A stretch of 64,000 bases of DNA from Mesorhizobium sp. NZP2298. Its GTDB lineage: Bacteria > Pseudomonadota > Alphaproteobacteria > Rhizobiales > Rhizobiaceae. The DNA lies in assembly GCF_013170825.1 (NCBI RefSeq), contig NZ_CP033365.1, forward strand, positions 2,430,001-2,494,000, given 5' to 3'. Under the pieces are notes generated by a model that made no database searches, was not told where the DNA came from, and saw nothing but the letters and a program-made list of their open reading frames with translations. Position 1 is the first letter of the stretch. Each line of letters begins with the position of its first letter. Below are positions 37,620 to 43,253 of this stretch, piece after piece. The translations under genes and the position numbers were made by a program.

Positions 37620-38006
37620 TCAGGTGACCGAGGCGGCCAGCGCCGTGTCGTAATACTCCACCATCTCGATGACCTTGCCGTCGCGCAGGGTCCAGAAGTT
37701 GGCGGCGCGCATGACGAATTCCTTGCCGGTGGTTTTTCGCGTCAAATGGATTTCGACCTGCGCCGCGACCTTGTCGCCGCCGTCGATAATGTCCACCGGG
37801 ACGAAGTTCCGGTATTCGAAATCACTGTCCAGCGCCATGAGGCGGGCAAGGAATTCCTGCTTGCCGTTGCCCGTTCCGATATAAGGCGCCTGCGGTTCGG
37901 CGACCCAGCGGAAGACGACATCGTCGGAGCAGTGGGCCAGCGCGCCCACGATGTCGCGTTTCGCATAGGCATCATAAAGGGTCTTGACGACGTCCACCCC
38001 GCGCAT
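37620..38006 (-). CDS. SnoaL-like / NTF2-fold protein
   Basis: 128 residues of the NTF2-like cone fold: VVKTLYDAYAKRDIVGALAHCSDDVVFRWV, PYIGTGNGKQEFLARLMAL, KVIEMVEYYDTALAA. Such proteins are isomerases, hydrolases or ligand-binding proteins; the pocket alone does not tell which. It lies 108 bp downstream of the ABC-F gene on the same strand. Confidence 0.88.
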   Translation of the reverse strand: MRGVDVVKTLYDAYAKRDIVGALAHCSDDVVFRWVAEPQAPYIGTGNGKQEFLARLMALDSDFEYRNFVPVDIIDGGDKVAAQVEIHLTRKTTGKEFVMRAANFWTLRDGKVIEMVEYYDTALAASVT

Positions 38007-38114
38007 GACCGGTCTCCTCCCTCGGCTTGCGGAACCTTCAGGATGCGCCTTTTTCGGCTGGCGGGAAAGTGCGGGCCGGCAAGCTCGAATGCCAGCCCGG
38101 CCGAGGCATCGCCT

Positions 38115-39641
<1,527 letters not shown>

Positions 39642-39779
39642 TTTGGATTTCTCTGGTCTTGCCGGAGACACCTCCGGATGCACTTTGACGGTGCGCGTGC
39701 TGGCCATCAGGCTCGGCGTTGCGCACCACGAAGGGCAGACCAAAAAATCGAAGCGGGAAAAAACCCGGACCGTCCCTGG

Positions 39780-39842
39780 TCAGCCCTGCAAGCTAGCTCG
39801 CAGGGCAGAAATCGGGCCACGCTGACGATGGAACGTAAACAC
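39780..39842 (-). CDS. Leader peptide upstream of the ABC-F gene
   Basis: A 20-codon frame starting at GTG (39840-39842) and ending in TGA (39780-39782), preceded by AAAGGAGGG, the best ribosome site in this stretch. The peptide begins with Met-Phe-Thr-Phe-His-Arg-Gln-Arg-Gly-Pro. Its last eight codons lie in a near-perfect 11-bp hairpin, so a translating or stalled ribosome would change the RNA fold. This is the layout of attenuated antibiotic-response genes, including ABC-F genes of Firmicutes. No data show translation; the call rests on the ribosome site, position and overlap. Confidence 0.6.
   Translation of the reverse strand: MFTFHRQRGPISALRASLQG
39783..39806 (-). promoter_or_regulatory. 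Strong hairpin in the ABC-F leader (candidate attenuator)
   Basis: GCCCTGCGAGC and GCTTGCAGGGC pair over 11 positions (one G-U) with a two-base centre. It ends exactly at the leader stop codon. A T6 run (39758-39763) and the small stem GACC/GGTC follow within 20-25 nt, so a terminator or anti-terminator could form depending on ribosome position. Confidence 0.55.
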
Positions 39843-39921
39843 GTGAGCCCTCCTTTCAAGACGTTCGAGTGTTGGGGAGCGATTACACCAAAGGCGGGGG
39901 TGGAGGCAAGTGGGGCGCAGT

Positions 39922-39947
39922 TTCCTTCTCCCACAAGGGGAGAAGGG
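39922..39947 (+). repeat. Short palindromic repeat (CCTTCTCCC / GGGAGAAGG)
   Basis: Hairpin TTCCTTCTCCC-ACAA-GGGGAGAAGGG just beyond the uvrB stop. The same type occurs at 57430-57482. It may mark the uvrB transcript end, though no T-run follows. Confidence 0.65.
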
Positions 39948-39955
39948 AAAAAGCG

Positions 39956-42900
39956 CTACCGCCCCGGCCGACCCGTCTTGCCCGGCCGGCGCTTTTCGCG
40001 GCGCGTATCGCCTGGATCCTCGTAAGAGCCGATGCCGGCGCGCTGACGGACGATTGGTTTGCCGTCGCGTTCCTTCGCGCCCCCCTCTGCCCTGCCGGGC
40101 ATCTCCCCCACGAGGGGGGAGATCGGCTGGGGCTTTGCCGGCATCTTTCCCTCGACCGGCTTTTCGGTGCGCCGCACCGTCATCTCGTCGAGCGAGTTTT
40201 TCTTGAACAGCGGTTTGACCGGCTCTCCGGGAATGCCGAAATCGGAGCCGTGTGCTTCCTGGGCGGACTGTTTCTTGAACAGCGAGCGCGACACGGCACC
40301 CGCCGGCGTCGGCATGTCGGTGCCTGGGCCCATGTCGTCAATCGATGGTTTGGCGAATAGCGGCTTCTTCACCGGCACGGCGCCATCGGCGCCCATCTCG
40401 TCGAGGGCCGGCTTGCGGAAAAGGTTGGGCCGGGCCGCCTTGGCCGCCTCTTCGGCGGCACGTGCTTCGTCGAGCTTGCGGAAACGCTCCTGCTCCTCCG
40501 CCGTACGGTGTTTGGCCACGCCCTTGTTGTGCTTGCCCTTTTCGCGGCCCGAGACCGGGCTCTCCATGTCGGCGTATTTGGCCAGCGGGTCCTCTGAGAT
40601 CGAGAGTTCCATCTCGCGCAGACGCTTGATCTCGTCGCGGATGCGGGCGGCCTTCTCGAAGTCGAGATTGGCGGCGGCGTCGCGCATCTGCTTCTCCATG
40701 GCGTCGAGATGGGCCTTGAGGTTGTTGCCCATCATGGCGCCGGCGCTGTCGGTGAACTGCGAGATGTCGGCGCGGACGTGGTCCTTTTCGTAGACCGAGT
40801 CGAGAATGTCCGAGATGCGCGACTTGACCGACTCCGGCGTGATGCCGTTGGCCGCATTCCATTCCATCTGCTTTTCGCGGCGGCGGTTGGTCTCGGCCAT
40901 CGCCCGCTCCATCGAGCCGGTGACCTGGTCCGCATAGAGGATGACCTTGCCGTCGACGTTGCGGGCGGCGCGGCCGATGGTCTGGATCAGCGAGGTCTCC
41001 GAACGCAGGAATCCTTCCTTGTCGGCGTCGAGAATGGCGACGAAGCCGCATTCGGGGATGTCGAGGCCCTCGCGCAGAAGGTTGATGCCGACCAGCACGT
41101 CGAAGGCGCCGAGGCGCAAATCGCGCAGGATCTCGATGCGCTCGAGCGTGTCGATGTCGGAGTGCATGTAGCGCACGCGCACGCCCTGTTCGTGCAGGTA
41201 TTCGGTGAGGTCCTCGGCCATGCGCTTGGTCAGCACCGTGACCAGCGTGCGGTAGCCGGCCTTTGTGGTCTCGCGGATCTCGCCGACGACATCGTCGACC
41301 TGGCTTTTCGCTGGGCGCACCTCGACCGGCGGGTCGATCAGGCCGGTCGGGCGGATGACCTGCTCGGCGAAGACGCCGCCGGCCTGCTCCATTTCCCAGC
41401 CGCCCGGAGTTGCCGAAACCGCGACGGAGAGCGGGCGCATGGCGTCCCATTCCTCGAAGCGCAGCGGGCGGTTGTCCATGCAGGAGGGCAAGCGGAAGCC
41501 ATATTCGGCCAACGTCGCCTTGCGCCTGAAGTCGCCGCGATACATGCCGCCAATCTGCGGCACGGTGACGTGGCTTTCGTCGATGAAGACCAGCGCATTG
41601 TCGGGAATGTACTCGAACAGGGTCGGCGGCGGATCGCCCGGCTGGCGGCCGGTGAGGTAGCGCGAATAGTTCTCGATGCCGGCGCAGGAGCCGGTGGCTT
41701 CCAGCATTTCGAGGTCGAAACGGGTGCGCTGCTCCAGCCGCTGTGCTTCGAGCAGGCGGCCGGCCCGCTCCAGCTCCACCAGCCGGTGCTTGAGTTCTTC
41801 CTTGATCGACTTGATCGCCTGGTTCAGCGTCGGGCGCGGCGTCACATAGTGCGAGTTGGCGTAGATCTTGACGCTTTTCAGCTCGCCGGTCTTCTGGCCG
41901 GTCAACGGGTCGAACTCGGTGATCTGTTCGATCTCGTCGCCGAACATCGAGATGCGCCAGGCGCGATCTTCCAAGTGGGCGGGAAAGATCTCGATCGTGT
42001 CGCCACGCACGCGGAACGAGCCGCGCACGAAATTGATGTCCTGGCGCTTGTATTGCTGGGCAACGAGATCGGCGAGCAGCGCGCGCTGGTCGAGCCGGTC
42101 GCCGATCTGCATCTGGAAGGTCATCGCCGTATAGGTCTCGACCGAGCCGATACCGTAGATGCAGGACACCGAGGCGACGATGATGACGTCATCGCGCTCG
42201 AGCAGAGACCGCGTCGCCGAATGGCGCATGCGGTCGATCTGCTCGTTGATCGAGGATTCCTTCTCGATGAAGGTATCGGTGCGCGGGACGTAGGCTTCCG
42301 GCTGGTAGTAGTCGTAGTAGGAGACGAAATACTCCACCGCGTTGTCGGGAAAGAACTTCTTGAACTCGGAATAGAGCTGCGCGGCCAGCGTCTTGTTGGG
42401 TGCCAGGATCAAGGCGGGGCGCTGCGTCTCCTCGATCACCTTGGCCATGGTGAAGGTCTTGCCGGAGCCAGTGACGCCAAGCAGTACCTGGGTGCGGTCG
42501 TTGTTGTCGACGCCTTCGACAAGATCCTTGATCGCGGTCGGCTGGTCGCCGGCCGGTTCGAAATCCGACACCATCTTGATGGCGATGCCGCCCTCGGACT
42601 TTTCCGGCCGGGCGGGACGGTGCGGTGTCCAGAGGACGCCGTCCTTGTGCAGCGGATTGCCGGATTCGATCAGTGCCGACAGAGCGGCGACCGTCGCGGT
42701 GACGCCGCTCGACGTCATCGTCTCGGCTTCTTCCAGCGAAACATCGAGGCCGGCGACCGGATTGAGGCCCGCCGCCGCGCGTTCGCGGGCGGTGGCCGCG
42801 CCGCCCATCGAGGTGCCGCGCGCGGTGCGTCCGGGCGCGGCGGAGCGTTCGGGGATCTTCTTCGACGGCTTTGGCGATTTGCCGCCGTCGCCCTTGCCGA

Positions 42901-43126
42901 TCTGGCGGCCTTCGCGTTCTGCCTCCTGTTCGATCTGCTCGGCCCAGTCGGCGATCGAACCGGTCAGCGGCGTGCCCGACAGTTCGGGCTGCGGCATCTC
43001 GGCGAAGCCGCCTCTGTGCAGCGGCTCCGAGGCGTCGAGGAAATCGGTCAGCGGGCTGCGCCGCTTCGGCGCGGCGCGGTCGGCATCCGCCGTCGGCGGC
43101 GTTCTTTTATCGGGGGATTTGGCCAT
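39956..43126 (-). CDS. uvrB: Excinuclease ABC subunit UvrB, extended form
   Basis: 1056 residues against about 670 in E. coli. UvrB verifies DNA damage with UvrA and recruits UvrC in nucleotide excision repair. Residues 1-183 are an extra low-complexity N-terminus; the helicase core then shows Walker [16 protein letters not shown], the damage-probing hairpin [29 protein letters not shown] and motif [15 protein letters not shown] domain ([20 protein letters not shown]) binds UvrC. After it come four degenerate LFxKPxLDEMG-like repeats and an in-frame palindromic repeat (40068-40126). The start ATG at 43126 has only a weak ribosome site; 43177 is an alternative. Confidence 0.96.
40068..40126 (+). 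repeat. Palindromic repeat element inside uvrB
   Basis: Contains the stem ATCTCCCCC / GGGGGAGAT around 40101-40123 and the flanking CTGCCCTGCCGGGC, the form of a common rhizobial intergenic repeat. Here it lies in the uvrB C-terminal coding region and is read in frame as [20 protein letters not shown]. Nearby UvrB sequence is Lys/Pro-rich and tolerant of insertion. Confidence 0.72.
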
Positions 43127-43253
43127 GACCCGAATATGGGAGGTCTTGGCGAAAATGGAAAGAGCGCGATGAGGCAAGCCGCATGCCCGGATGCAGCTCC
43201 TGACAGAAGGCTGTCAGGAGGAGGCAGTGCCATGGATTGCCTGCCTGTCGCGG

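Follow-up and report, generated by a model that had tools for sequence, protein, structure and literature searches.

What controls the ABC-F gene of Mesorhizobium sp. NZP2298, and what do the short open reading frame (ORF) and the RNA hairpin in front of it contribute? The window analysed here is a stretch of 64,000 nucleotides of this genome, which is a single contig of 7.34 Mb. Our data suggest that the gene is probably under the control of a translational attenuator of the erm type, whose predicted stall motif, x-Gly-Pro, is unfamiliar. The erm attenuators follow a four-segment scheme. The corresponding segments and the other features of the locus, all on the minus strand, are as follows.

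39848..39856, minus strand: Shine-Dalgarno element of the leader, AAAGGAGGG; an SD-like element precedes the start codon in 67/71 non-redundant leaders
39780..39842, minus strand: leader ORF with GTG start, 20 residues (MFTFHRQRGPISALRASLQG) and TGA stop, from translation; frame and peptide core are kept in relatives
39813..39818, minus strand: Gly-Pro codons GGC CCG, the predicted stall site; at the same place in 146/148 leaders, with all four Pro codons used
39797..39806, minus strand: segment 1, the 5' arm of the leader hairpin (GCCCTGCGAG), within the ORF; 7-bp core pairing
39770..39792, minus strand: segment 2, the 3' arm of the hairpin and the first 10 nt past the stop; pairs with segment 1 or 3
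39733..39750, minus strand: segment 3, CGATTTTTTGGTCTGCCC; can pair with segment 2 or 4
39645..39660, minus strand: segment 4, the ABC-F ribosome-binding region AAGACCAGAGAAATCC, with the conserved AGACCAGAG right before the start codon; pairs with segment 3
38115..39641, minus strand: gene of an ABC-F ATPase of 508 aa, presumably the regulated gene, from translation, Pfam ABC_tran (two stretches) and NCBIfam

The gene lies downstream of a long ORF (39956-43177), which we take to encode UvrB. Its product has two ABC domains (Pfam PF00005, two stretches). Residues 19-501 align in one piece to chain 9 of 8buu, named ExpZ, which is the best such solved relative and presumably VmlR2. The top NCBIfam model is ribo_prot_ABC_F (NF000355), followed by Sal; the window protein scores 290.1 bits and does not reach the cut-off of this curated resistance family, 380 bits. 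We regard the protein as a candidate antibiotic-resistance factor that would relieve ribosome-drug stress. Between the ABC domains sits KLNNIGINSGSDLL (residues 241-254 of P0001 in alignment A2), of which 12 of the 14 positions are invariant or nearly so among 38 orthologs with at least 51% identity. Its position and a low-confidence structure model, predicted from 29 alignment rows with a mean pLDDT of 47, suggest that it may form the tip of the linker; it is a candidate for the functional tip in this clade of ABC-F proteins. A scan of 39000-40500 gave no sigma-70-like promoter, and no Rfam 15 family matched 38000-42500 at E up to 1.

The original prediction placed a Shine-Dalgarno sequence and a 20-codon ORF from GTG ahead of this gene, and both are present (AAAGGAGGG; 39780-39842, minus strand). 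It also described an 11-bp hairpin ending at the stop codon of the ORF. The hairpin exists, but GCCCTGCGAG pairs with CTTGCAGGGC (39797-39806 with 39783-39792) over 10 bp around a 4-nt loop and ends just 5' of the stop codon. Similarly, the ABC-F gene follows as described, at 138 nt past the leader stop instead of 139. The 220-nt leader as a whole folds at -97.7 kcal/mol (z -4.13), which is equalled by 1 of 200 shuffled sequences.

The leader accompanies orthologous ABC-F genes across the Alphaproteobacteria. Among 104 loci picked by ABC-F protein similarity alone (80 named loci and 24 from the order), 103 have the leader ahead of the gene. This comparative evidence supports the proposal that the ABC-F gene is preceded by a conserved leader peptide that looks translated, with a hairpin sensitive to ribosomes. 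The conservation of ORF and stem, whose absence from relatives would have spoken against the proposal, extends to orthologs of ~51% protein identity. The 80 named loci (74 from Mesorhizobium or from Rhizobiales without a genus name, and 6 from Ensifer), which are the best 80 among 102 that the search with the ABC-F protein detected, all carry the leader, in one case with TAA instead of TGA as its stop (L020). Outside the genus but within the order, the leader was found in 23 of the 24 loci fetched by ABC-F similarity, the exception being L144; these are all but one of the 25 matches beyond the genus, a partial one (G257) having been left out. The gene itself is found in 32 of 249 genomes of the order. 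Within the genus, leader DNA matches occur in 134 of 146 genomes, the weakest of them being short matches elsewhere, and at least one genome without any such match (G028) nevertheless holds a divergent ABC-F gene with a leader.

More distant relatives were reached by the RNA model R1 and by protein searches. R1 matches 62 of 297 genomes of the family and 20 of 385 of the class. The 11 class loci with E <1e-8 (L152-L162), the window's own aside, all adjoin an ABC-F gene. The 10 class matches with E >1e-5 (L163-L172) and the weak family matches L211-L213 have no ABC-F match beside them and were rejected as noise. A leader-blind protein search of the class detected the ABC-F gene in 19 of 385 genomes; the 12 orthologs of at least 51% identity comprise nine with GP leaders, two with variants (RGSV in L220, RQPV in L226) and one without a leader (L216). 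The leader was not seen in six relatives of 37-43% identity, three of which (L230, L231, L232) have an uncertain start codon. A search of the phylum matched 24 of 398 genomes, all within the class or closer. Two loci were dropped, L179 because its ABC-F match begins at residue 236 and L182 because it has no ABC-F match at 1e-10. The leader is also found in Sinorhizobium meliloti M162, whose pSymA carries the ABC-F gene (70% identity) with the leader MQNYYYRFNRQRGPVNALRMRLQG. In Ketogulonicigenium vulgare the leader reads MARRFHDRTRGPVPAPRLISRG.

Which part of the peptide is conserved? Most of the 71 non-redundant leaders follow the pattern M(variable)-H-R-[QT]-R-G-P-[VI]-x-A-L-...-LQG, and Gly-Pro is its nearly invariant element. 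An earlier leader finder located 152 of the 155 loci but is no evidence for Gly-Pro, because it demanded GGNCC itself. We therefore rely on a GP-blind scan, which recovered 148 of the 155 loci (missing L011, L052, L144, L152, L156, L157 and L189) and placed Gly-Pro two codons ahead of segment 1 in 146 of them; the exceptions read QP (L161) and RH (L197). Applied to both strands of all fetched loci, the same scan passed 194 places, 183 with GP. Besides the window and the 80 named loci, the 155 include 24 found through ABC-F similarity, 47 through the RNA model and 3 through leader DNA. The latter two groups, 50 loci in all, are thus leader-selected, and some genomes occur twice (e.g. L174/L204, L176/L205, L177/L209). 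At the DNA level, the 71 leaders use three Gly codons and all four Pro codons for the motif, and 8407 of 16260 pairwise differences around it fall at third codon positions. The residue before GP is Arg in 54 leaders, His in 6, Phe in 6, Tyr in 4 and Cys in 1. The residue after it is Val in 47, Ile in 10, Asp in 7, Arg in 4, and Phe, Asn and Gly in 1 each. The +X+ motif (Arg/Lys-X-Arg/Lys) of macrolide-responsive leaders, as described in PMC10314930, was considered and rejected as the conserved element: R-X-R is present in the window (RQR) and, by hand count, in just 53 of 71 leaders, and GP is more conserved.

The flanks of the motif vary. The N-termini differ in length by whole codons; the window's leader, for instance, lacks three codons present in its neighbours, and L007 has three extra. 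At the other end, the ORF stops early, in the hairpin loop or the 3' arm, in 8 of 71 leaders (L137, L146, L153, L157, L189, L190, L192, L203) and runs beyond the hairpin in 3 (L158, L160, L162), with the hairpin intact in all of them. Since the end of the ORF shifts while the hairpin stays, the terminal LQG appears to reflect the RNA and not the peptide. In 67 of 71 leaders the loop has 10 or 13 nt, so that the reading frame is kept.

The hairpin is one of several alternative pairings. The core of the 1:2 helix joins GCCCTGC (codons Ala-Leu) to GCAGGGC and is paired in 100% of cells across 38 sequences, compared with 29-57% when the arms are slid against each other. The core of the 2:3 helix, GCAGGGCTGACCAG with CTGGTCTGCCC, is paired in 94% of cells (22-58% when slid). 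Covariation adds little here. Five of the seven pairs of the 1:2 stem are invariant and two vary on one side, so this stem hardly varies and its covariation is uninformative; for the 2:3 core covariation does not exceed that of shuffles, 360 of 500 of which reach the observed pairing. Segment 2 resembles segment 4. In several loci segment 4 differs (L139, L140/L159, L141, L142/L143/L199, L153), and segment 3 changes to match.

The matching of segments 3 and 4 can be seen by exchanging partners between loci. In these tests, made on 70 of the 71 non-redundant loci (in one the spacer is too short), a locus's own 3:4 duplex beats the mean of swapped duplexes in 50/70 loci (-18.6 vs -16.5 kcal/mol) and shuffled ribosome-binding regions in 60/70. 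Permutation among 22 thinned loci gives -16.9 kcal/mol for the own duplexes against a permuted mean of -14.3 kcal/mol, and 0 of 5000 permutations are as low. These 3:4 tests are free of bias from the location of segment 3, although relatedness may still inflate the figures. Within the spacer, segment 3 has its best partner in the ribosome-binding window in 48 of 63 loci. For the 2:3 helix, the own duplex beats shuffled ones in 69/70 loci but swapped ones in just 43/70, and 2 of 5000 permutations of the 22 thinned loci are as strong; the 2:3 swap and permutation tests are biased in favour of pairing, since the position of segment 3 was itself chosen to fit the locus's own segment 2. The conserved outcome is that the ribosome-binding site of the ABC-F gene is either masked or freed through segment 3, an element absent from the original prediction.

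These pairings point to the following mechanism. In the OFF state, a ribosome would finish the 20-codon leader, the 1:2 hairpin and the 3:4 helix would both form, and the latter would hide the ABC-F ribosome-binding site. A ribosome-targeting antibiotic would set off a stall with the Gly or Pro of R-G-P in the P site, and the leading edge of the stalled ribosome would then cover segment 1. Segment 2 would be left to pair with segment 3 while segment 4 is still to be transcribed. In this ON state segment 4 would emerge unpaired, and the ABC-F protein would be made and would relieve the stress. Comparison of the leaders supports the ORF, the motif, the spacing and the two alternative helices. 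The stall at GP, its cause (ribosome-targeting antibiotics) and the relief of the stress by the ABC-F protein we infer.

We modeled the consequence of a stall by folding the leaders with a ribosome in place. The leading edge was set at 16 nt from the first base of the P site, as reported from toeprints on the vmlR uORF (PMC9226507). GP precedes segment 1 by two codons, which puts the end of the Pro codon 6 nt ahead of this segment, and a ribosome that has a 16-nt edge and Pro in its P site covers the 7-nt core of the segment. In nascent folding, with segment 4 still absent, such a ribosome takes the 1:2 helix from 6.5 to 0 pairs and the 2:3 helix from 8.0 to 16.1, the gain in 2:3 exceeding 2 pairs in 69 of 70 loci. 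When the P-site codon is scanned, the effect reaches a plateau at Gly and stays on it up to the fourth codon past Pro. Gly-Pro is thus the first place where a stall would fully switch the RNA, since the plateau begins at Gly.

At equilibrium the predicted switch is much weaker. For the full leader with 30 nt of coding sequence, the ribosome-binding site opens by >0.1 in 14/70 loci and closes by >0.1 in 0 when the stalled state is compared with the ribosome-free one. Compared with the terminated state, stalling weakens 3:4 in 54/70 and leaves the site more open in 48/70; the site is >0.1 more open in just 17/70, however, and >0.1 less open in 1. Truncated leaders without coding sequence show a weak trend, being more open with a Pro-stalled ribosome than with none in 48/71, and shifts of >0.1 go towards opening in 23/71 and towards closing in 9/71. 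The window's own full leader shows no switch at equilibrium. Its 3:4 helix keeps 11.5 to 12.7 pairs in all states, and the openness of its ribosome-binding site is 0.37, 0.35 and 0.37 across them. Therefore, a switch in the window strain must be kinetic, acting during transcription, if our inference is right.

Taken with the folding, the locus has several of the features expected of an erm-type attenuator. A leader ORF with its own Shine-Dalgarno stands before the target (103/104 loci; SD-like in 67/71), helices 1:2 and 3:4 compete with 2:3 and segment 4 lies at the target's ribosome-binding site, and the predicted stall is placed to cover segment 1 (146/148; nascent folding, 69/70). The comparative case for a leader-peptide translational attenuator, built from sequences, is strong.

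Could the hairpin instead act on transcription? On this reading, the hairpin with a T run, or a Rho site, would halt RNA polymerase unless a ribosome stalls. The ABC-F genes msrD and vmlR do use terminators (PMC10314930, PMC9226507), and a uORF-dependent attenuation thought to be Rho-dependent is reported from Sinorhizobium meliloti (PMC12218461). The window has a T6 run at 39758-39763 (minus strand), which starts 19 nt past the hairpin and not 20 as first described, and a weak terminator-like site is predicted at 39786-39767. However, such sites are within chance (2 found, 1.3 expected). Runs of at least 5 T within 45 nt past the stop occur in 64/81 loci (the window and the named loci), 67/152 of all, and 12/71 non-redundant leaders, so that the run is common near the window but no general feature. 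No run of at least 4 T lies 3' of segment 3 in any of the 70 loci. These two counts, 12/71 and 0/70, make a terminator from hairpin and T6 unlikely. Transcription attenuation also gives no reason for segment 3 to match the ribosome-binding site with which it pairs, and we consider this reading quite improbable. A Rho step could still follow translational repression. An amino-acid attenuator, with a ribosome that stalls on the leader when Arg, His or Pro runs short, would fit the frequent His and Arg codons at positions -4 to -1. Yet nothing but Gly-Pro is nearly invariant, several lineages have other residues in place of His and Arg, the one Pro codon varies over all four synonyms, and the target is an ABC-F gene and not a biosynthetic one; this reading is very unlikely. 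Least credible of all is a leader ORF that encodes a small protein with its own function, the RNA pairing being incidental. The peptide core is conserved, as this would require, but the N-terminus varies in sequence and length, and the ORF end shifts (8 early, 3 beyond) while the hairpin stays and the segment pairing is maintained.

A more serious rival, though still an unlikely one, accepts the switch and changes the signal: x-Gly-Pro would slow ribosomes by itself, the ABC-F protein would clear the stall, and the gene would turn on without antibiotic when the protein is scarce or overloaded. Such autogenous sensing has parallels. MsrD is reported to lower its own leader-dependent induction (PMC10314930), and EttA is described as working via the leader peptide MgtL. 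In addition, RGP is the core of the RGPP arrest sequences, RGPP being given as the strongest RAPP-like arrest core, and in the reported RAPP and RAPG arrests the third codon, here Pro, occupies the P site (PMC12992588). In these arrests, though, Arg is described as irreplaceable (PMC12992588), whereas in our set Arg before GP is replaced in 17/71 leaders, and Pro never follows GP, Gly just once. The R-G-P core is a likeness to RAPP/RGPP peptides, but with neither a following Pro nor a strict Arg (54/71) we do not file the leader motif as RAPP-like. The genes reported downstream of the arrest peptides ApdP, ApdA and SecM are sec, yidC, TonB-related or copper-related (PMC12992588, PMC10987492). 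The patchy distribution of the ABC-F gene (32/249 genomes of the order) is also more like that of an accessory resistance factor. An antibiotic-triggered translational attenuator is the reading we retain.

The locus can be compared with several known systems. In the erm attenuators of Gram-positives, a macrolide-stalled leader ribosome is reported to switch RNA hairpins and make the target translatable (PMC11264731). The leader ORF and, as predicted here, the hairpin switch on stalling are shared; here, instead, the target is an ABC-F ATPase, the host belongs to the Alphaproteobacteria and the peptide core is x-Gly-Pro. Like msrD and vmlR, the window gene stands behind a leader-peptide ORF. 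For these two, stalling on the short ORF is reported to refold RNA with intrinsic terminators (PMC10314930, PMC9226507), and vmlR is described as having in addition an SD-sequestering hairpin, SL-4 (PMC9226507). By contrast, no conserved terminator was seen here, and their peptides, MYLIFM and MIN, are unrelated. In the E. coli toiL-topAI system, the uORF is reported to sense several ribosome-targeting antibiotics and to unmask a ribosome-binding site (PMC12121999). It shares with our locus the Gram-negative uORF and the freeing of the site, which for our locus is a prediction; its target, however, is a toxin-antitoxin operon, and in the proposal of its authors a stall at any point of toiL has the effect. 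The duf1127-1 uORF of Sinorhizobium meliloti is likewise a rhizobial uORF whose control is described as relieved by a translation inhibitor. It differs in that its attenuation is reported as transcriptional, dependent on C-rich RNA and indifferent to peptide sequence (PMC12218461).

Leader-peptide control of ABC-F resistance genes has so far been documented in Gram-positives. We found no report of it for Alphaproteobacteria in the open-licence literature, nor a precedent there for the motif; the type of control itself is known. The dozens of natural leader sequences form a curated set that defines the tolerance of the stall motif. The hosts are soil symbionts tractable for testing, among them a Sinorhizobium meliloti strain with the leader on pSymA. 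The system also offers a way to find out which antibiotics are met by Alphaproteobacteria in the soil, and how the ABC-F proteins of an uncharacterised clade respond to them.

In plasmid-borne ABC-F relatives from Gammaproteobacteria (Rahnella, Pantoea, Klebsiella, Ewingella and Vibrio; L256, L257, L258, L259, L260, L261), with 34-36% identity, the conserved leader ORF is a different one, e.g. MLTREVFLISLVLSDRHCSSVTGIVLR; it has a strong SD and lies ~260 nt upstream of the ABC-F start. Inverted arms like GCTCAAGC/GCTTGAGC lie across the end of this ORF, and the post-stop CTTGAGCGAAG resembles the ribosome-binding region CTTGAGTAAG. Judged by eye, these leaders apparently share the same switch design with another peptide. 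A bolder reading may be offered, which we put somewhat below an even chance. [R/H/F/Y]-Gly-Pro would be a new conditional arrest motif, a weakened relative of RGPP that stalls only under a peptidyl-transferase drug or similar stress; it would control a widespread, undescribed clade of resistance ABC-F proteins, and Gammaproteobacteria would have independently built a second leader that shares this architecture but has another peptide.

Several minor observations concern the leader as a piece of DNA. Decayed or partial-looking leaders, or leader pieces, lie beside ABC-F genes in L122 (G117), L182 (G816) and L179 (G103), which suggests occasional loss of the ABC-F gene. Pieces of the leader spacer of 27-46 nt (window 39696-39747; L114-L121) have matches of 80-93% elsewhere in eight genomes of the genus. 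In at least four Mesorhizobium loci (L035, L038, L064 and L073, among 35 of the 81 aligned), a palindromic element of ~50 nt, AGAGCATGATCCCGAAAAG...ATCATGCTCC, sits in the spacer between segments 3 and 4, and the four segments are intact.
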